The translations under genes and the position numbers were made by a program. Source: a virus. From it: a stretch of 39,203 nucleotides of DNA. Location of the stretch: positions 1 through 39,203 of IMG/VR virus record IMGVR_UViG_3300050821_016912. One strand, given 5' to 3'. Of the stretch, positions 1 through 35,867 are shown one piece after another. Each line of letters begins with the position of its first letter. The stretch's first letter is position 1. A model generated the notes under the pieces. That model saw only the letters and a program-made list of their open reading frames with translations. It made no database searches and had not been told where the DNA came from.

Positions 1-56
1 CCTGTCATTGGTAAAAACCCCGCTTATAGACCAAATGAATACGATTGGGTGGGCGG
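1..56. repeat. Terminal direct repeat (contig closure), left copy
   Basis: Bases 1-56 are identical to 39148-39203. The methyltransferase reading frame runs through the join without a shift (163 codons from 38659 to 39147, then codon 164 at base 1). This is what a circular assembly with a short overlap gives. It does not show what the physical virion ends are. Confidence 0.97.
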
Positions 57-1254
57 TGCAGGTGGCAAAACCCCAATGAGGCCAGAACATAAAACCGGTC
101 CCGCCACCGACGCCGCCAAAAAATGGCAAGGCTTTGGTACGGCCCTTAAACCCGCCAATGAGCCCATATGTCTCGCGCGGAAACCGTTGGAGCCAAAACT
201 CACCGTCGCCAGCAATGTTTTAAAGTGGGGTGTTGGGGGTTTGAATATTGATGGGGCGCGGATAGCTGGTGATTTAGAACAACGCACTCGCCATAATGGG
301 GGCAGTCGTAAAGATTCAAACATTGGCGCGCTTGGTATTAACGAGGCCATATACTCGGCACCACCAGCCCAAGGCCGCTGGCCCGCCAATGTGATTTTCG
401 ATGAAGAGGCAGCCCAATTGTTGGATGAGCAGAGTGGGGTTTTGAAGAGCGGCCAATTAAATGCGGGACATAAACAACATCAAGGGTTCCAGGGCCGTTA
501 CAAAACGTCGGGCACCATAACCGGGAACTACGGTGGTGACACCGGCGGCGCCTCTAGATTTTTCTACGTGGCCAAGGCGTCAAAATCTGAAAGGAACCGG
601 GGGCTTGACTGTATTGAGATAATTAATATAAGTATTGGTTCATGGGAAAGTGCGGACCAAAAAGCTCAGCTCCAGGTGGATACGGCACAATCTCCCCCAA
701 AGGTTATCGCCGCATCTGGGACGTTAAACAAAAGCGTTACCGAATGGAACACGTTGTTGTTTGGGAACAGCACTTCGGACCCGTCGTTGGCAAGCTTCAA
801 GTCCACCATAAAAACGGTAAAAACCTCGACAATCGAATCGAAAACCTTGAGCTGGTTAGCCCACTTCAACACAAGCGCGAGCATTCAGGATGCAAACTTA
901 TTGGAAATCAGTGGTGGAAACCATGCGGATCTTGCCGGAAGTTTAAGCCCATCGATCAATATTATAAACGTCCCGACGGGGTCTGCTACGAGTGCAAGTC
1001 CTGCACAGTCAAACGATCTGTTGCAGACAAAAAGCGGCGGCGTTCTTAAGTCTACGCATCCCACCGTCAAACCAATCAAACTGATGGAATATTTGATTAA
1101 ACTGATCTGCCCTCCGGGCGGCGTGGTACTTGATCCCTTTGCTGGCTCAGGTTCCACATTGGTCGCAGCCAAACGGTTGGGTTTTCAATTTATCGGCATC
1201 GAAATGAATGAAGAATATGTCGAGATCGCCAGTAAACGAATTCAAAATGCCTGA
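1..1254 (+). CDS. DNA methyltransferase, 3' part, carrying a nested HNH gene
   Basis: Continues the gene that starts at 38659. The recognition region leads to ASRFFYVAKASKSERNRGLD (ends near base 612). The C-terminal end has HPTVKP (joined residues 516-521) and the SAM-binding motif I DPFAGSGST (541-549), so the motif order is IV then I, as in the beta class. In relatives only a short stretch lies between RNRGL and HPTVKP. Here about 145 codons (roughly 366-513) are inserted, Ser/Thr-rich and without recognisable domain. In another frame the same bases encode an HNH endonuclease (642-1049). The methylase frame has no stop across the insert, so a full-length enzyme with a large loop is possible. 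Whether it is active is not known. Confidence 0.9.
   Translation, partial: PVIGKNPAYRPNEYDWVGGAGGKTPMRPEHKTGPATDAAKKWQGFGTALKPANEPICLARKPLEPKLTVASNVLKWGVGGLNIDGARIAGDLEQRTRHNGGSRKDSNIGALGINEAIYSAPPAQGRWPANVIFDEEAAQLLDEQSGVLKSGQLNAGHKQHQGFQGRYKTSGTITGNYGGDTGGASRFFYVAKASKSERNRGLDCIEIINISIGSWESADQKAQLQVDTAQSPPKVIAASGTLNKSVTEWNTLLFGNSTSDPSLASFKSTIKTVKTSTIESKTLSWLAHFNTSASIQDANLLEISGGNHADLAGSLSPSINIINVPTGSATSASPAQSNDLLQTKSGGVLKSTHPTVKPIKLMEYLIKLICPPGGVVLDPFAGSGSTLVAAKRLGFQFIGIEMNEEYVEIASKRIQNA
642..1049 (+). CDS. HNH homing-type endonuclease nested in the methyltransferase gene
   Basis: 135 residues, in a different frame from the surrounding methyltransferase. Residues 35-81 form an HNH_3-type core: EHVVVWEQHFG, then VHHKNG (H55, H56), then a DNRIENLELV segment (N64, N68) and H77/H81. 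A zinc ribbon follows, with C95-x2-C98 and C115-x2-C118. The N-terminal GYGTISPKGYRRI strand region is typical of phage HNH enzymes. Such proteins nick or cut DNA at an empty allele and spread their own gene. The ATG at 642 has no clear Shine-Dalgarno sequence, so expression may be weak or coupled to the methylase. The stop is 7 bases before the conserved HPTVKP codons, which leaves no room for a group I intron ribozyme. Identity as an HNH protein is firm; mobility is inferred. Confidence 0.88.
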   Translation: MGKCGPKSSAPGGYGTISPKGYRRIWDVKQKRYRMEHVVVWEQHFGPVVGKLQVHHKNGKNLDNRIENLELVSPLQHKREHSGCKLIGNQWWKPCGSCRKFKPIDQYYKRPDGVCYECKSCTVKRSVADKKRRRS

Positions 1255-27227: not shown

Positions 27228-28204
27228 GCGGTCACCTGCACCACTTGCTCGGCTGCCAGCGCCAGCATACTCGCAAGCTTTCGGTCGCGAAAATCATTGG
27301 CGGGCATTTGGCGAATGGCTGCAAAACCCCCCGGCACCTTAAGCGCCACGGCGAATAATTGCTCACCCAGGTGCTGGCGCAACCCCTCGGTTTTGCCAGG
27401 CGGGTTTTGGCGGATGGCATCGAGCACAAGTCTTGCCTGTTGGTCCCAGCCGCTGATTGGCTGATCCGGCCTTTGCGTGGGCATTTGCTTGGCATGCTTC
27501 ACCCAGCCACGGTCAAACCACGAGGACATAAACCTGGACCAGCCGCGAAGGGTTCTTGGCGTGCGGTGCGGATTGGCTTCGCACCAATTCAGCGCCTTGA
27601 TCACCTCGCGCTCCAAAAACTCTCGCTCGGGATAAAGTGCCGCCCACCGCGCTTTGGTACTTGGCGGCAGTTGAACAAATAACCCTTCGGGTGATTCCGG
27701 CTTAACCAGTTCTTTGGATTTGCGGCTCGGCGTTTTTACCAGCGCCAGCGCAACCTCGGGTTGTGCTGCGGTGGAAATAGATCCGTAAGGATCTATAGTA
27801 CTTGTCTGTATTGTAGTGTTCTGTTCTGTACTCGTACAGGTTTGTACGTGATCCGTACGGGTCCGTACGGATTCTAAAACCTTGACCATGCCGCGCTCAG
27901 AAAGCTTGACCAGGGCTGATCTCACCGCTTGCTGCGGTATGCCGGCCACGGTCTCGGCACGGCTTGGATATATCTCGGCAATGGCGCTGTTACGTTGCGA
28001 GGCCTTGCACAATATATATATAAAGGCCAGTTTTTCGACGGCCGATAAATAACATATATCGTCTTCTTCCAATATCCGGTTATTTAATGCGAACCAATGG
28101 GGCCTCTTTATATCCTTTCGCGGGTTATATTCCCCCCAATTTTGGATTTCGATTCGCACTGGCTCGCGCAAATCGTCGGCATTATAAGGTTCGTTTTTTA
28201 CCAT
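27224..28204 (-). CDS. Replication-initiator-like protein (winged-helix N-terminus)
   Basis: 326 residues. Residues about 30-110 (HWFALNNRILEEDDICYLSA, VEKLAFIYILCKASQRNSA, TVAGIPQQAVRSALVKLSER, GMVKV) form a winged-helix domain like those of phage replisome-organiser proteins. A Thr-rich linker (about 110-150) is encoded by the repeat cluster 27781-27872. The C-terminal part contains KALNWCEANPHRTPRTLRGW and SRFMSSWFDRGWVKHAKQM, a pattern seen in phage replication proteins near their helicase-loading end, and a helical tail. Ribosome site GGGGGGAG precedes ATG. It probably binds the origin and recruits host helicase; the family assignment is by pattern. Confidence 0.62.
   Translation of the reverse strand: MVKNEPYNADDLREPVRIEIQNWGEYNPRKDIKRPHWFALNNRILEEDDICYLSAVEKLAFIYILCKASQRNSAIAEIYPSRAETVAGIPQQAVRSALVKLSERGMVKVLESVRTRTDHVQTCTSTEQNTTIQTSTIDPYGSISTAAQPEVALALVKTPSRKSKELVKPESPEGLFVQLPPSTKARWAALYPEREFLEREVIKALNWCEANPHRTPRTLRGWSRFMSSWFDRGWVKHAKQMPTQRPDQPISGWDQQARLVLDAIRQNPPGKTEGLRQHLGEQLFAVALKVPGGFAAIRQMPANDFRDRKLASMLALAAEQVVQVTA
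27781..27872. repeat. GTAC-rich repeat cluster, candidate replication origin
   Basis: Six GTAC tetramers between 27798 and 27868. At 27851-27872 ATCCGTAC and GTACGGAT form a perfect 8-bp inverted repeat around GGGTCC; inside it CCGTACGG occurs twice (27853-27860, 27863-27870). A related ATCCGTAAGGAT is at 27781-27792. It lies in the part of the initiator-like gene that encodes a linker, as in lambda, where ori lies inside O. Confidence 0.5.
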
Positions 28205-28283
28205 TTATTGCTCCCCCCCGGTTGCATTTACGGTTTGTTGGATTTATGAAGTCTGGTTTCAGAAAGGATTAGGCTTAAGATGA
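28205..28283. other. Short intergenic stretch before the initiator-like gene
   Basis: Holds the strong ribosome site (GGGGGGAG) of the gene at 28204 and AT-rich sequence; no clear -35/-10 pair was found. Confidence 0.4.
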
Positions 28284-28516
28284 TGTCCAAATTTTGCCAC
28301 TGGAACCCCCTGCTTTTTGCTGCATTTGAGTGCGAATCAGTGCACAAATGGCACCGCCAAAACAGGTGGTTCCACTGCCAAGGTTTACTTTTAGAATTAA
28401 GGGCTTAGATAGGTTTTCGGGGAGTGGCGCAGCCTGGTAGCGCATCTGCTTTGGGAGACGCAAATGACCCTTGAAAACATTGAGGTTTTTGAAAAAGTGT
28501 CCAAATTTTGCCACTG
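28284..28516. other. attP region with arm-type repeats
   Basis: TGTCCAAATTTTGCCACTG occurs twice in direct orientation, at 28284-28302 and 28498-28516, on both sides of the tRNA-Pro half-gene. A degenerate inverted copy (GGTTCCACTGCCAA) lies at 28368-28381. The region ends 20 bp from the integrase stop. Repeated arm sites around a core, beside int, is the layout of tyrosine-integrase attachment sites. Confidence 0.78.
28418..28457 (+). other. tRNA-Pro(TGG) 5' half = attP core
   Basis: Reads as the first 40 bases of a proline tRNA: acceptor CGGGGAG, TG, D-stem GCGC, loop AGCCTGGTA, GCGC, A, anticodon 5' strand TCTGC and loop TTTGGGA with anticodon TGG, plus G. From there the sequence stops fitting (the 3' anticodon strand should be GCAGA but GACGC follows). 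The phage therefore carries only the 5' half of the gene, and crossover is expected in the D-arm to anticodon-loop interval of the host gene. Confidence 0.82.
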
Positions 28517-28536
28517 TGCCACGGTACTCTATAAAC

Positions 28537-29556
28537 TTATTTTGTTTCATTAAACTCTATTTGTATAAGTGAAGACACCACCCGCGTGTCCTCGATGGTG
28601 AAGTGCAGATAGGTCTTCTCGGCCTCATCGAGCGAAAGGCCAGCGTAGTGGCATATAAGCGCCGGGTTGACCGCTTCCTTGAACGAGCGGGTCAAAAAGG
28701 TATGCCGCAGATCATGAAAACGCCCAATGATGCCGGCATGCTTTTTACAAGACACCCAAGCTTTTTGATTCGACCGATAGGGAAAAACAAATCCGCTTTC
28801 GGCGGCGGCGACGCGAGCCTTAAGGCCCATCAAACAAGCATCGGATATGGCAAAAGACCTGGCTTTGCGGATCTTGGTTTTAAATTCGGGCAAGTGAATG
28901 GCGCGCACCGTAAAATCAATATCGCAGCATTCCAATTTTAATATCTCCCCTTTTCGCATCCCCATCGTGATCGCCATCAGTATCTGCAGGTGCAAATCGC
29001 CCGTGGCATGTTCAAGAAGGCGTTTGATTTCAGCGGGCTCAAAGATTTTTCCGGCTTTGCGCTCCGGGTCCACATCCTCAAGCATGGGGAGCTTTGGGAT
29101 TTTCCCATTGCGGTGCAGCCAGTTTAAAAACATCGCGAGGTATTTGCGGTCGTTAAAAAATTTGCGCTCGGCTGCGATCTGCCGTTTGTGTTGCACATAG
29201 CGAATCCATTCGGATTCAGTTATATCCTGCACCCGGTATGACCCGAAGTACGGGCCGAGGTGCAAATCCCAATGCCCCTTGATCGATTCATAGGTTCTTT
29301 TTGCTTTGGATTTTTTCAGTTCTAAAAATTCAGGGAAAGCGTCCGCGACCAACAGGGCTTGGCCCTTCCATTTGGGCTTGGAGCCAAGAAAGGCCGAAAT
29401 CTGTTCATCCCTGCGGACTTGGGCTACGCCCAGCTCGGAAGTCTGAAGTGATCTCTCAAGCACGCCCCTGCCGGCCTTAAAAAGGCGGACCCAAATCCAT
29501 TTCCCCCGCCTAAATAAATGATGATTGGCGTTACCCTTAATTTTTTCATACTTCAT
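28537..29556 (-). CDS. int: Tyrosine-family integrase
   Basis: 339 residues with an N-terminal arm-binding part, a SAM-like core-binding domain (about 65-160, VADAFPEFLELKKSKAKRTY) and a catalytic domain. Catalytic residues are visible: R201 in TMGMRKGEIL, a Lys in FKTKIRKAR (227-231), H281-x2-R284 in FHDLRHTFLT, H303 in ICHYAGLS, and Y316 in KTYLHF. It recombines attP with the host tRNA-Pro gene. It directly adjoins attP, and its start overlaps the excisionase stop by 4 bases. Confidence 0.95.
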   Translation of the reverse strand: MKYEKIKGNANHHLFRRGKWIWVRLFKAGRGVLERSLQTSELGVAQVRRDEQISAFLGSKPKWKGQALLVADAFPEFLELKKSKAKRTYESIKGHWDLHLGPYFGSYRVQDITESEWIRYVQHKRQIAAERKFFNDRKYLAMFLNWLHRNGKIPKLPMLEDVDPERKAGKIFEPAEIKRLLEHATGDLHLQILMAITMGMRKGEILKLECCDIDFTVRAIHLPEFKTKIRKARSFAISDACLMGLKARVAAAESGFVFPYRSNQKAWVSCKKHAGIIGRFHDLRHTFLTRSFKEAVNPALICHYAGLSLDEAEKTYLHFTIEDTRVVSSLIQIEFNETK

Positions 29557-29729
29557 GCGGTCTGTATTTTCCTATTAAACCACTTCATAACGTCGTCCTT
29601 TTCAAAAATCAGCCGTCGGCCTATCTTGCGGCACTTTAAAAGGCCGCGCTTTTTTTCGTTGTGAACATGCCTGACAGAGCAATGGGCCATCTCAGCCACT
29701 TCCTCGATAGTCAAAAACGTTAGTTTCAT
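29553..29729 (-). CDS. xis: Excisionase-like MerR/AlpA-type HTH protein, 58 aa
   Basis: MKLTFLTIEEVAEMAHCSVR is the HTH_17 start (L-T-x-E-E-V-A-x-x-x-x-x-S-x-R), followed by VHNEKKRGLLKCRKIGRRLI and FEKDDVMKWF, the usual wing of such domains. Small proteins of this type just upstream of int act as directionality factors or int regulators. AAGGGG lies about 9 bases before the ATG. Whether it drives excision or regulates int cannot be told from sequence. Confidence 0.8.
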   Translation of the reverse strand: MKLTFLTIEEVAEMAHCSVRHVHNEKKRGLLKCRKIGRRLIFEKDDVMKWFNRKIQTA

Positions 29730-29746
29730 CTCCCCACCCCTTTTTT

Positions 29747-29977
29747 TTATCTCCTAAAAAATAACAAAAGCCCCATGCCTAACTGCATCCCGAGCCAAAA
29801 TGTATCGGACGCGATTTGCAGCGTGGATGCCTCACACCGGATGTGAAGGGCTAAGATGACCAACTGAAAGGTGAACAAAACCCACAACGCAAGCTTTGAA
29901 AGCCTGATGATTTTTTTGTTCTGCTCGATTTCCTTGTCGACCTTGGCCACGATTTCATTAATCTCCTTGTCATCCAT
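29747..29977 (-). CDS. Two-span membrane protein, 76 aa (holin candidate)
   Basis: A charged N-terminal helix (MDDKEINEIVAKVDKEIEQN) with coiled-coil spacing, then LALWVLFTFQLVILALHI and a second span FWLGMQLGMGLLLFF ending FRR. Size and topology (N-in, two spans) fit a class II holin, but it is far from the endolysin and next to xis, so a holin role is only possible. It starts directly after the stop of the TnpB-like gene. Confidence 0.55.
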   Translation of the reverse strand: MDDKEINEIVAKVDKEIEQNKKIIRLSKLALWVLFTFQLVILALHIRCEASTLQIASDTFWLGMQLGMGLLLFFRR

Positions 29978-30307
29978 TTAGCCTGCCTTAACGATTCTCA
30001 CCGAAGGCTGAAGCTTTGAGCGTATGGATTTTTCTACAGCCTTTTGAAAGCTCATCTCTGAGCCGCCAAAAAACTCTGGCAGATACTGGAGTGCCTCAAG
30101 CGGCACGCGTCTTTTCTGGTTGTTAAAATAAACAAGGTAGCTATTGCCTGCCAGAACCTTAAAGGCCGTAAGACTATGGTTTAAAAAGACCAACAGATCA
30201 CCCTTGCTAAGCTTGCCAGCATCAATTTTCGCATCCTTTAAGACCTGGGTGAGGCCCTGAAACGACATTCTCATATCGACGTTAAAAAACACTCTTGCGA
30301 TTCTCAT
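29978..30307 (-). CDS. IS66 TnpB (Orf2)-like protein, 109 aa
   Basis: The N-terminus RVFFNVDMRMSFQGLTQVLK matches IS66 Orf2, in which a V-x-D-M-R-K-S/G-F-x-G-L motif is diagnostic (here D11-M12-R13, F16, G18-L19). KGDLLVFLNHSLTAFKVLAG then YLVYFNNQKRRVPL takes the place of the family's G-x-L-F-V-F-x-x-x-R-x-D-x-I-K-x-L and L-x-x-K-x-L-E segments. In IS66 this small protein is needed with TnpA and TnpC for transposition; its own activity is unknown. No TnpC or terminal repeats are here. The start overlaps the TnpA-like stop by 4 bases. Confidence 0.65.
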   Translation of the reverse strand: MRIARVFFNVDMRMSFQGLTQVLKDAKIDAGKLSKGDLLVFLNHSLTAFKVLAGNSYLVYFNNQKRRVPLEALQYLPEFFGGSEMSFQKAVEKSIRSKLQPSVRIVKAG

Positions 30308-30579
30308 GTGAGGCTCTCAATCATGCGGGCGACTTGGTCGGCATCGCAGACGACGATGGCCACCTTTTTTGTCTCTGTTTTAAGAGGGATTTCCAAAAAC
30401 GCTTTTGGCTTGAGCAGGGCCTTTGGAGCGTCGCCTCTCAGCCTGCCGTAATAAGTCGAGATGTGTATTTGAGCTTTTTTACAGGCCTCTTTAACTGTCA
30501 TGCCGCCGCCGTCGACAAGGGCCTTTGCTTCGTTAAATCGTTTGTTGCGTTCGTTGATAACTTCGTCTTTTTGCGTCAA
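30304..30579 (-). CDS. IS66 TnpA (Orf1)-like HTH protein, 91 aa
   Basis: TTG start at 30579 with AAGGGGACACC just upstream; a longer start would only read through the small membrane gene at 30612. NKRFNEAKALVDGGGMTVKE and ACKKAQIHISTYYGRL form a helix-turn-helix like the transposase Orf A proteins of IS3/IS66. The C-terminal tail AFLEIPLKTETKKVAIVVCD and ADQVARMIESLT has the strand-then-helix ending of IS66 TnpA (V-x-I-x-x-x-x-D-x-x-x-x-x-x-x-x-L). Together with the TnpB-like gene it forms the order of an IS66 tnpA-tnpB pair. Could also be a general phage HTH; the pairing favours the IS66 reading. Confidence 0.55.
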   Translation of the reverse strand: MTQKDEVINERNKRFNEAKALVDGGGMTVKEACKKAQIHISTYYGRLRGDAPKALLKPKAFLEIPLKTETKKVAIVVCDADQVARMIESLT

Positions 30580-30611
30580 GGTGTCCCCTTTGGTGTTTGT
30601 GGTTGCGAAAA

Positions 30612-30698
30612 TTATTTGGTTCTTACACACATAATTAAAAAAGTGACCACGGCCCAGAGTAATAAAATCCATAATGCGAGGAAAACCCCGTCGCTCAT
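30612..30698 (-). CDS. Single-span membrane peptide, 28 aa
   Basis: MSDGVFLALWILLLWAVVTF and LIMCVRTK: one hydrophobic span with a basic end. GAGG lies 7 bases before the ATG and the start overlaps the stop of the preceding gene by 4 (ATGA), which supports translation. Function unknown. Confidence 0.5.
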   Translation of the reverse strand: MSDGVFLALWILLLWAVVTFLIMCVRTK

Positions 30699-31027: not shown

Positions 31028-31792
31028 TCATAATTGTTCTAGATACGTGTTGGCGTGGTAAATAAACTCTTCAATCGCCCCCCCTTTATCGGGCACGTTG
31101 ATCGCCCAATTTACAAAGCTTTCAAGCTCGGCTTGCGGCACTTCTGATAGTTTTTTGCCTTTGAATTTCTTTGAGATTTTGATCACGTAATCGCCGGGCG
31201 ACGCTGGCCCTGGTTCCACAAAAGGTGGTGTTTCAATTTCTTCATAAGTCACCTCTGGTGGCGGCGGCTGGCTCTCGCTGATCACGGCTTGGATTTGTTT
31301 GGCTTTTGTCTCACCTTGCTGCGTTTTGATTGATTCAATCTCGGTCTCATCCAAAAATCCAAGCCCGCAAATGGAGAGTGTCACCCGCCGTTTGGCCTTG
31401 GTTTCGGCTTTCATATAGGCGTTGGCCAAAGCCTCGCCTTTTAAATGAGAAGTGGTCACGGCCCCGGTTGATTCATCGGTGCGCCCCACTATGTCCCGGG
31501 CGCGAGCCGTGACCACATAAAGATCATCGAGCTTTTCGCGTGATATGATTTCAATTGATATTTTGTTGATACGCCGCAATTGATCGGTCGCATCCCGTTT
31601 GGCATAAAGGGTGAGCTTGCCGTTCAAAGTGATATATTCAAACGGTTTAGTTAACGGGTTTAAGCCCAATGATTCGCAGACCTGGTTATAAAACACAACC
31701 CGCTCAGGGGGTGAAAGCCTGGATAAATCGCCGCCGATCAGGGCTGCCTCAATGGCCGGTGCTTTTTGTGTTATGGGTTGGATATTGCTCAT
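31028..31792 (-). CDS. Single-strand annealing protein (Bet/RecT-type)
   Basis: 254 residues. LSPPERVVFYNQVCESLGLN followed by PLTKPFEYITLNGKLTLYAK and RDATDQLRRINKISIEI matches the start of the Redbeta-type annealing proteins (L-x-L-N-P-x-T-x-x-x-x-x-x-x-x-G-x-x-x-x-x-x-D-x-x). ALANAYMKAETKAKRRVTLS with ICGLGFLDETEIE is the core end. The C-terminus (about 200-235) has KKFKGKKLSEVPQAELESFV, like the short G-K-Y-K-G-K-x-L-x-E-x-P motif in DUF3820-type tails. It anneals the strands made by the exonuclease that overlaps it by 4 bases. The pair supports phage recombination. Confidence 0.75.
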   Translation of the reverse strand: MSNIQPITQKAPAIEAALIGGDLSRLSPPERVVFYNQVCESLGLNPLTKPFEYITLNGKLTLYAKRDATDQLRRINKISIEIISREKLDDLYVVTARARDIVGRTDESTGAVTTSHLKGEALANAYMKAETKAKRRVTLSICGLGFLDETEIESIKTQQGETKAKQIQAVISESQPPPPEVTYEEIETPPFVEPGPASPGDYVIKISKKFKGKKLSEVPQAELESFVNWAINVPDKGGAIEEFIYHANTYLEQL

Positions 31793-32592
31793 TCAGCACC
31801 CCACATCCAATGCGGCACAGAGATGGGCTGAAGCTCGGCGGGGTAGCCTGGCCACATATCGGAATCCAAACATTGGGCATAAAGGGTGAGGGCTTTTCTT
31901 ACGTCCTGCATGCCGCGCTCAATAGAGGCTTCATCAAGGACATAGCAGGCGACCAGGTATGGGGGCTCACGCTCGGCCACGATAAATGTGAATGAGTCAT
32001 GATTTTCGCCCGTGACCTTCGATAAGCCTTCCAAATAAAAGGCCGCCTGCATGTCGTAGCGAAACCTACCAATACTATTCATAAAGCCTCTGAAAGACGC
32101 ATCAGCGCAGGTTTTTAAATCCACGCCAATGCGGCCGGGGCGAATGCAATCGGGACGAAACTTGCATTTCACTCCTGTTTGTTCGTCGGTCCAAAAGTAA
32201 GAGGATTCGTTGATGCCTTGGCTTAAAAGATTTCTCGCCGTTAAATTCCCTAAGACGGCATCGCGGATATTTAAAGCCTGCTCAAATTCATTTTGGAGCA
32301 TCACGGTTTTGCCTGGATGGGATTGGACGGCGTCTTTAAAAGCCTTAGCAGCCCGGCTGCCGACATCCACCACCAGGGAGCTTGAAAAGAGGTGTGGTTC
32401 CAAAATGGCAGTATGGACATAAGTGCCCATGCGCATCTCCGCCGAGGGCGGCTCTGGGTTATCCAAATTGTATTTAAAGTGTGCCGGCGTCTGCATGATC
32501 AGCGTGCGCAGGCCCGATGAGCCTACAGCGTCTTTGATCGCGTGGTATTCCTCGTTGGAACAGGCCAAAGCCTTTTGGGCAAGGTCTTTCAC
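31789..32592 (-). CDS. RecE-like PD-(D/E)XK exonuclease
   Basis: 267 residues from GTG with AGGGAG four bases before it. KDAVGSSGLRTLIMQTPAHF and MRMGTYVHTAILEPHLF form the N-terminal part of the DUF3799/RecE C-terminal nuclease family. The metal site is visible as RPDCIRPGRIGVDLKTCADA with D148, D158 and K160, and YDMQAAFYLEGL (179-190) supplies the conserved Gln/Tyr helix. It digests 5' ends of double-stranded DNA so the annealing protein can load. Overlap ATGA with that gene. Confidence 0.85.
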   Translation of the reverse strand: MKDLAQKALACSNEEYHAIKDAVGSSGLRTLIMQTPAHFKYNLDNPEPPSAEMRMGTYVHTAILEPHLFSSSLVVDVGSRAAKAFKDAVQSHPGKTVMLQNEFEQALNIRDAVLGNLTARNLLSQGINESSYFWTDEQTGVKCKFRPDCIRPGRIGVDLKTCADASFRGFMNSIGRFRYDMQAAFYLEGLSKVTGENHDSFTFIVAEREPPYLVACYVLDEASIERGMQDVRKALTLYAQCLDSDMWPGYPAELQPISVPHWMWGAE

Positions 32593-33431: not shown

Positions 33432-35867
33432 TTATTGCCCGTTCACGGCCTTGATCATATTGGCCACAAGCTGGCCCCAAGTGGTCAAAGATGAGCCTGA
33501 TGTCATGCTGAAATCAGTCACGCCATTGGGGTTGTAGAAAACAAAGCCGCCGCCACCAATACCTGCCGATGCCACCTGTCCAATGGCCGATGCGATAGCC
33601 GAGCCAGAGCTTTGGCTGGGATTGGCGTTGGAGCCGCTGCCGTATTCGTTAAAGATCACCGGCACGATGCCATCGGCACTTTGGATTGTCTGTGCTGCAA
33701 GATAGCCCGAATGAGAGGCGGCGCTGCCCTGCAAGCTTTGAAGTGCGCCGCTATCGGTGTAGCAATGCATCCACCAAATGATATTGGTCATTTGGGCATA
33801 ATCAGCCACGATAAAACCCGCGCCATTGCCGACAGTCTGGGGGTTGCCGGCAATACCTGCCTCAAGATCAATGATGTTGGTGTTACCGGTGGCCCGAATC
33901 GCGTTGTAAAGCGCCAGCTCGTAAGTCGAAATGGCAGCAATAGCGCTCGGGTTGTAGGTGCCGTCGGCGCTATTTAACTCATTGAGCGAGCCAAGCCACA
34001 CGTATGGATTGCCTTTAAAAGCCGTGGCCATACTCGACCAGAACGCCAAGTTTTGTTGCAAACTCGTGCCAGTCGGCGGACCGTCTAACACCTGCGACAA
34101 ACCCCCGGGGATGTCGACTTCCCAATAGCCGCCATTGCTCGAGTGATCCTCAAACTCAACAACGTAACCGAGCAAATTAATTTGGGCGGCAATCGCTTGA
34201 AGTGATGCGACGGTGGGGTAAGTCCATTGCGTTGTCGAGTGATAGGTCGGATAAACCATGGCGCGCACATAATTCAGGCCAGGGAATAATTTCGGCGCGT
34301 TGGCGACAAACGACGCCACGTCAGCATCGTCGAGGTACAAATTCACGCCCTCAGGTAAAAATGGTTTACCGTTCGGATCTGTCATCCGCCCACCGCTGAT
34401 TTTGAAATTTCCCGTGGGCACAGGCGGCGGCACGGGCGAATTACTCGGCTGAGGTGTCGGCGTAGGGACAGGAACTGGGCTCGGAGATGGACCAACCCAC
34501 TGGCCGCCAGTCCATGAATACCATTGACCACTTGCGGCGTCTTCACCCCAGATAACGCCAGAGACGTACGTCAATCCCGAGGTACCGCTGCCGCCGGCAA
34601 CCGCGCTACCGTTTTCATCAACGACGCCAGCCGAAGTTAGCGTCCATACGTTACCCGATGCGTCAGTTATGCTGCCGCCGCTCGTGGGCGTCAACACGGT
34701 GCTGCCGCCGCTAGCCGATGGAGTGGGCGAGGGTTGAGGGGCGCCGCCGCTTGTTTGACTAAACAACCATTGATATAGCGCGGTGCCGTCGCCGCCGTCG
34801 GCATTCATGCGGCCAAACGTCGTCCAGGGGGAGCCTCCGGGATCGGCAATATAATAAAATTGCGAGCTGCCAGCCCGGATAGCCGCCATACCGCCCGAAT
34901 CATAATTGGATTGCGTCGGATAATTGCTATTTCCCGTGATGTAAGTCCAAAACGGTTGGTCCCAACTGCTTGGGGAGTTATCCGAGGGTGTCGAGATCGC
35001 AAGATAAGGGACATTCACCATGCGCTGAAAGACGCTGGAGTTGGCAATCGAAGGCCTGTAAAGCTGTTCGCTCATGCCCACGGCCGCCGTCCAAATCTTT
35101 TGGCCACCCGCATAGTCTTGGTTGTTGTCGGCCAGGGCTGCAAGATACCCGATCGCCGACAAACTTAAGCCCACGGCGTAAACCCTGGTCGTATCGACGC
35201 TGAAACCCGCCATCATGGTTTTGGCCACGGCCGAGATGGCCTGCTCGTTCCACTCACCGTTTGGCGTGTCCGCATAGCCGCCGCAATTGGCGTTTGGGTT
35301 AGCACCCGAGAGATCCAGGGTCTGATCACACTGCGGTGCTACAATAATGGCCGGGTGCGCGGTCCTAAAAGCCACGGTGTTAAAAGTAAAACCATCACCC
35401 TCTAAAGCCGAGACGAATGTTGCGCCGTCGCGAGGGTAGGATGACCCATTCATTCCCTGATCATTGCCCGTGCCGACAAACATCAGAGGGTAAGAATATT
35501 TTTGGGGGTTATATCCTTGCGGCAATAAATAATTGTATTGCATGCCTTTATATCCAGAGGGGCTATTGGGGAATGCCTCAACTTGGTCCACCACCCATGA
35601 GCCAGCGGTAACTGAGCCCGTGAGAGGTGCAGGGATCGGGATAATGCCAGTCGAAGGCGCGGGGGACGGTGTAGGCGAGACACTTGGTGTAGGGCTTGCA
35701 CTCGGCAAAGGTGAGGCACTCGGCGATGTCGACGGGTGTGGCACAATTTTTAAAGAGACCATATCACCAGGCACAGTCGTCGTTGTGCCGTCGGTGTTTG
35801 TGATGACAGTGTCCGCCAGGGCAAAAAGCCCGAGGAACACGGCCACGGTTAAAATCTTTTTCTTCAC
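33432..35867 (-). CDS. Secreted bifunctional esterase and GH5-type glycoside hydrolase, 811 aa
   Basis: Residues 1-19 are a signal peptide. A Pro/Ser/Thr linker (about 45-80) leads to an alpha/beta-hydrolase (about 88-372) with nucleophile S235 in AVGLSLSAIGYLAAL, like CE1/PHB-depolymerase enzymes. A second PT linker and a small module (390-460, ending SGQWYSWTGGQWVGP) precede another PT linker. The C-terminal domain (488-811) is a GH5-like TIM barrel: ISGGRMTDPNGKPFLPEGVN, YVRAMVYPTYH, acid/base E630 in WLGSLNELNS, H701 in WWMHCYTDSG, nucleophile E741 in VPVIFNEYGSG. It likely de-esterifies and cuts an extracellular polysaccharide. GTG start after AAGGGGGAT. It may be a lysogenic-conversion gene. 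Confidence 0.82.
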   Translation of the reverse strand: MKKKILTVAVFLGLFALADTVITNTDGTTTTVPGDMVSLKIVPHPSTSPSASPLPSASPTPSVSPTPSPAPSTGIIPIPAPLTGSVTAGSWVVDQVEAFPNSPSGYKGMQYNYLLPQGYNPQKYSYPLMFVGTGNDQGMNGSSYPRDGATFVSALEGDGFTFNTVAFRTAHPAIIVAPQCDQTLDLSGANPNANCGGYADTPNGEWNEQAISAVAKTMMAGFSVDTTRVYAVGLSLSAIGYLAALADNNQDYAGGQKIWTAAVGMSEQLYRPSIANSSVFQRMVNVPYLAISTPSDNSPSSWDQPFWTYITGNSNYPTQSNYDSGGMAAIRAGSSQFYYIADPGGSPWTTFGRMNADGGDGTALYQWLFSQTSGGAPQPSPTPSASGGSTVLTPTSGGSITDASGNVWTLTSAGVVDENGSAVAGGSGTSGLTYVSGVIWGEDAASGQWYSWTGGQWVGPSPSPVPVPTPTPQPSNSPVPPPVPTGNFKISGGRMTDPNGKPFLPEGVNLYLDDADVASFVANAPKLFPGLNYVRAMVYPTYHSTTQWTYPTVASLQAIAAQINLLGYVVEFEDHSSNGGYWEVDIPGGLSQVLDGPPTGTSLQQNLAFWSSMATAFKGNPYVWLGSLNELNSADGTYNPSAIAAISTYELALYNAIRATGNTNIIDLEAGIAGNPQTVGNGAGFIVADYAQMTNIIWWMHCYTDSGALQSLQGSAASHSGYLAAQTIQSADGIVPVIFNEYGSGSNANPSQSSGSAIASAIGQVASAGIGGGGFVFYNPNGVTDFSMTSGSSLTTWGQLVANMIKAVNGQ

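Follow-up and report, generated by a model that had tools for sequence, protein, structure and literature searches.

What are two small overlapping genes that lie between the recombination genes and the xis/int genes of a phage: tnpA and tnpB of an IS66 insertion sequence deprived of its transposase, or genes of another origin? A sequence-only reading of the locus had proposed the former, with a possible role of a domesticated pair in phage DNA processing. The window, i.e. the whole stretch of DNA analysed here, is an IMG/VR virus record of 39,203 bases, and the two genes are found where that reading had placed them, on the - strand, in a compact - strand operon running from 32592 to 28537. 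The order of the operon is exonuclease VIII, RecT-like 254-aa protein, 108-aa ORF, 28-aa membrane peptide, 91-aa HTH protein, 109-aa protein, 76-aa ORF, excisionase and tyrosine integrase, so that the pair is indeed flanked by exonuclease VIII and the RecT-like gene on one side and by xis and int on the other. The features referred to below are:

31789..32592, - strand: exonuclease VIII-like nuclease (PHROG 412, 2.2e-84; DUF3799, 7.9e-38)
31028..31792, - strand: 254-aa RecT-like protein, presumed to act in single-strand annealing, with no curated family match
30612..30698, - strand: 28-aa membrane peptide (MSDGVFLALWILLLWAVVTFLIMCVRTK) at the edge of an exchanged module; its beginning is conserved in the sister phage L002
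30304..30579, - strand: 91-aa HTH protein (P0002), TTG start at 30579, tnpA-like in position and size order
29978..30307, - strand: 109-aa TnpB_IS66-like protein (P0001), ATG start at 30307, its probable homologous half being residues 9-53 (profiles, shuffles, conserved residues, AlphaFold2 model)
29747..29977, - strand: 76-aa ORF with hydrophobic stretches, beginning directly after the stop codon of P0001
29553..29729, - strand: xis-like excisionase (HTH_17; Pfam PF12728, 3.9e-11; PHROG 66 and 1840)
28537..29556, - strand: tyrosine integrase (Pfam Phage_integrase, 1.1e-12; PHROG 1, 6.9e-33)

The genes for P0002 and P0001 overlap by 4 bp (ATGA). Codon scores of the sense frames, 0.26 for P0001 and 0.32 for P0002, are in the range of the other phage genes and above those of all other frames, and both are therefore probably coding genes. 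The 76-aa ORF that follows them has no family match in Pfam, PHROGs or NCBIfam.

P0001 is similar to IS66 TnpB in size (109 aa versus about 111-125 aa), is likewise encoded by the second gene of an overlapping pair, and is recognised by two curated models at scores below their cut-offs: Pfam TnpB_IS66 (PF05717) at E 9.1e-4 and 19.5 bits (curated cut-off 26.6 bits), and NCBIfam NF033819 at E 3.2e-4 and 20.6 bits (curated cut-off 50 bits). Both align to residues 9-53 only, and by the curated cut-offs the protein is not a member of TnpB_IS66. PHROG 623 gives no match to it, whereas real TnpBs score 1e-39 to 1e-68 with that profile; as a control for PF05717, 35 of 35 genuine TnpBs match at E <= 1e-3, with a best E of 3.6e-44. 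A search of 19,183 ORFs, taken from related phages and genomes, with a profile made from nine genuine TnpBs gave two matches, namely an IS66 TnpB (L168, 1.8e-38) and P0001 (0.0014, listed twice because two overlapping loci represent its record). When 45 TnpBs were used against about 19,700 ORFs, a set including 519 ORFs from the window, L168 again came first (6e-42), followed by P0001 at 9e-4, and the next ORF had an E-value of 1.9. Among 50,000 shuffled sequences none reached the 19.0 bits of P0001, the best one scoring 13.6.

Between the D-M-R block and the K-x-L strand, both included, TnpBs have 11 strongly conserved residues, of which P0001 retains eight in an alignment with 35 TnpBs (D11, M12, R13, G18, L19, F41, K50 and L52). 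The N-terminal D-M-R-x-S-F-x-G-L motif pointed out in the sequence-only reading is thus present, together with the F and K-x-L strand positions. The protein differs from TnpB in lacking the KRLExGxFxWP signature: of eight conserved positions that belong to this region or adjoin it (L, K, R, L, G, F, W, P), none is kept, each being replaced or deleted. Its identity to other TnpBs is only about 17-31%. Multiplied by the approximately 50 genes of the window, the Pfam E-value becomes about 0.05 and is borderline, which we consider offset because the TnpB family had been named beforehand from the sequence alone, and no competing family appeared. On these comparisons, P0001 is a probable remote homologue of IS66 TnpB over its N-terminal half. 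The sequence-only reading had made its case depend on whether the 109-aa protein matches IS66 Orf2 significantly, and the similarity is significant, though below the cut-offs; its description of the protein as TnpB-like therefore stands for residues 9-53, and fails for one of the two signatures and for PHROG 623.

The case of P0002 is different, as the proposal that it corresponds to IS66 TnpA was not confirmed. The protein reaches no family in Pfam, PHROGs or NCBIfam, with weak HTH matches only, and with an IS66 TnpA profile it obtains an E-value of 0.48 and rank 7 among the approximately 19,700 ORFs, below unrelated ones. It resembles TnpA in being a small HTH protein encoded directly upstream with an ATGA overlap, but differs from it in length (91 aa versus the usual longer form), in giving no match to a profile of the TnpA C-terminus, and in a score that is generic for HTH proteins. 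Of the genuine IS66 tnpA/tnpB pairs, 43 had a tnpA that could be located, and 18 of these show the exact ATGA overlap. Yet, phage operons often contain such 4-bp overlaps, and the overlap is thus insufficient to establish a TnpA ancestry. From its sequence P0002 can be called only a generic HTH protein.

The absence of tnpC and of terminal repeats, also part of the sequence-only reading, was borne out. No match to the IS66 transposase (tnpC; DDE_Tnp_IS66, PF03050) was obtained at E <= 1 in the 39,203-bp record, while the control genomes were positive. IS66 elements end in inverted repeats of about 20-35 bp and are flanked by an 8-bp target duplication. Motifs resembling IS66 ends are no more frequent in the record than expected by chance, none lies near the two genes, and a repeat search gave no pair flanking them with the features of IS66 ends. 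The sister phage L002 offers no clean empty site for comparison, as it differs across the whole int module. Where phage records do contain a genuine IS66 (e.g., Pseudomonas phage Marin and Escherichia phage 4A7), tnpA and tnpB have the order and overlap of P0002/P0001, but tnpC lies beside tnpB. Of the 50 IMG/VR records with a TnpB, 40 carry a DDE_Tnp_IS66 gene, and most of the other 10 end shortly after tnpB (contig ends being judged by reading). The pair is not an IS66 element, nor is it a recognisable recent remnant of one. What a recent remnant looks like may be illustrated by another IMG/VR record (L224:296-1032), in which a full-length canonical IS66 tnpA-tnpB without tnpC, likely a partial IS66, adjoins phage-like genes.

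An AlphaFold2 model of P0001, for which a TnpB alignment served as input, has a mean pLDDT of 71 (76-87 across the first 60 residues) and the elements E2-7, H16-25, E37-42, E48-53, E56-61 and H70-80 (beta-alpha-beta-beta-beta-alpha). A canonical TnpB, modelled without P0001 at a pLDDT of 90, consists of E11-14, H24-34, E44-48, E54-61, E64-71, E86-89 and H91-98. The order of elements agrees (E-H-E-E-E-E-H in TnpB, E-H-E-E-E-H in P0001), P0001 being shorter at the region of the missing signature. As TnpB sequences guided the P0001 model, this topology is not independent evidence, and we take the agreement as supportive of a predicted TnpB likeness. Fold searches with the P0001 model (BFVD, PDB, VIA-align) returned nothing significant, and those with the canonical model gave no clear or significant match either; nor did any solved chain match the TnpB profile. 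YTH domains, the leading VIA-align hits of canonical TnpB (Z 3.3-4.7), and SH2 domains, recurrent for both models (Z about 2.5-3), were set aside as lying within noise.

No relatives of P0001 were detected in IMG/VR, 84,980 species genomes, named phages or plasmids, and none of P0002 in IMG/VR or named phages, in scans that were seeded by short exact peptides or tblastn and that distant relatives could escape. Within these scans P0001 is, unlike TnpB, a single occurrence. Among 49 other phage records reached via the RecT-like gene, PF05717 is absent, the window alone giving a match, and the survey of other phages that had been suggested for the pair thus yielded no second carrier. The DNA pattern for V-D-M-R-x-S-F-x-G-L occurs in four stretches of IMG/VR: two are out-of-frame in other phages and two belong to records with a genuine IS66 TnpB. 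The RecT-like protein itself (31028-31792, - strand), for which neither Pfam, PHROGs nor NCBIfam has a significant match, has 456 relatives in IMG/VR and further ones in 53 bacterial contigs; it apparently represents a widespread family of presumed annealing proteins that has no name so far.

The nearest sister phage that we found, L002, has a RecT-like protein 87% identical to that of the window, and comparison of the two phages locates the pair within a larger exchanged segment, which also contains the attachment region:

28187..30638, - strand: segment without DNA similarity to L002, containing int, xis, the 76-aa ORF, the P0002/P0001 pair and attP
28418..28457, + strand: probable attP core, the 5' half of a tRNA-Pro(UGG) gene, just downstream of int and between 19-nt direct repeats

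The DNA of the two phages is 77% identical up to the 30639 side and 73.7% identical from 28179 down. Between these flanks, L002 carries an unrelated int/xis/attP module, with a 122-aa ORF at the expected place of the pair. The integrase module is exchanged as a block between the two phages, and the L002 version comes without the pair. The closest integrase relative found (L155, 53%) has the arrangement exo-RecT-xis-int and lacks the pair as well. Rare as it is, the pair travels with a single integrase module. The perfect 19-nt direct repeat TGTCCAAATTTTGCCACTG, at 28284-28302 and 28498-28516, brackets the tRNA-Pro half, whose identity was recognised by eye, as a half gene receives no ARAGORN call. 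This suggests that the record is the excised or free form of a phage integrating into a tRNA-Pro gene; the tRNA-Pro half had no match in seven genomes. In L002 a repeat pair of its own, ggttgcgaaatcgttacggg, occupies the equivalent place.

The explanation that we favour, tentatively and with somewhat less than even confidence, is that P0001 is a divergent protein of the TnpB fold, homologous to TnpB and co-opted together with P0002 as a small DNA-binding partner. P0001 would keep the N-terminal beta-alpha-beta core of TnpB and its conserved residues, with a shortened hairpin devoid of KRLExGxFxWP, and the ATGA overlap would couple the translation of the two proteins. P0002 may have its DNA target within the early operon or close to the attachment region, and P0001 may bind P0002; together they would make up a small complex, accessory or regulatory, that serves the recombination/integration module without transposition. 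The partnership, the DNA target, the role and any IS66 ancestry of P0002 are what we infer, and the same holds for domestication of the pair and a function in DNA processing as put forward in the sequence-only reading. TnpB profiles and shuffles, the eight retained residues, the element order of the model, the codon scores, the tight overlaps and the lack of tnpC and IS66 ends speak for this explanation; it is weakened by the scores below cut-off, the missing central signature, the generic HTH score, the dependence of the model on TnpB sequences and the lack of relatives. A narrower version, in which both genes descend from IS66 tnpA and tnpB, have lost the accompanying transposase and now encode a DNA-binding complex accessory to phage recombination or integration, appears rather unlikely.

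The main rival to a co-opted TnpB-like protein, a serious possibility to which we give a little less credence, is that the two are accessory genes of an ordinary phage kind, one for a small HTH regulator and one for an unrelated orphan protein, and that the 45-residue resemblance to TnpB arose by chance or convergence. Scores below cut-off over one half of the protein, a borderline corrected E-value, an HTH score like any other and the frequency of 4-bp overlaps in phage operons would all fit. Yet chance does not easily account for a score that no shuffle attained and that stands well apart from the next unrelated ORF, for retained residues that are the most conserved ones of the TnpB family, or for two independent curated libraries naming TnpB_IS66 with no rival family. 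Alternatively, the pair could be exchangeable cargo beside int, for phage defence or counter-defence and unrelated to recombination, as it lies inside the segment swapped between the sister phages at the integrase end, a frequent site of cargo, where L002 has its different 122-aa ORF; but a PADLOC search for defence genes gave no match and the pair sits within the recombination-integration operon without an evident promoter of its own, and we regard this as improbable. We disfavour most strongly, as very improbable, a decaying IS66 insertion that has lost tnpC and its ends. IS66 copies are known in prophages and L224 does have tnpA/tnpB without tnpC, but its two genes are full-length and canonical, whereas P0001 is highly divergent from other TnpBs; moreover, both ORFs of the window are intact and phage-like in codon usage, no spacer interrupts the operon, and the record holds neither end-like sequences near the pair nor a trace of tnpC.

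Transposition of IS679 reportedly needs all three ORFs, a result attributed to Han and colleagues in 2001. For insertion sequences with several ORFs, such as IS66, the function of the accessory ones has been described as undetermined and probably regulatory (PMC3281130); members of the ISBst12 group of IS66 possess one ORF only (PMC12898284). In the literature that we searched, no report of a phage-domesticated IS66 pair was found. If a TnpB-like protein is truly kept here without a transposase, its fold would act on its own, most simply as the partner of a small DNA binder, and the locus would provide a minimal two-gene system for testing the activity of the TnpB fold; a domesticated pair, if true, would mean that TnpB activity is separable from transposition.

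Two further genes of the window deserve mention. The 811-aa protein encoded at 33432-35867 (- strand) is apparently secreted and has a glycosyl hydrolase family 5 (cellulase) domain (Pfam, 7.8e-14) preceded by an N-terminal part that is weakly esterase-like (NCBIfam, E 0.011), a cargo unusual in a temperate phage. At 49-1254 (+ strand), a 401-aa DNA N6/N4 methyltransferase has its Pfam match confined to residues 329-395, as if a large insertion or fusion split the domain.
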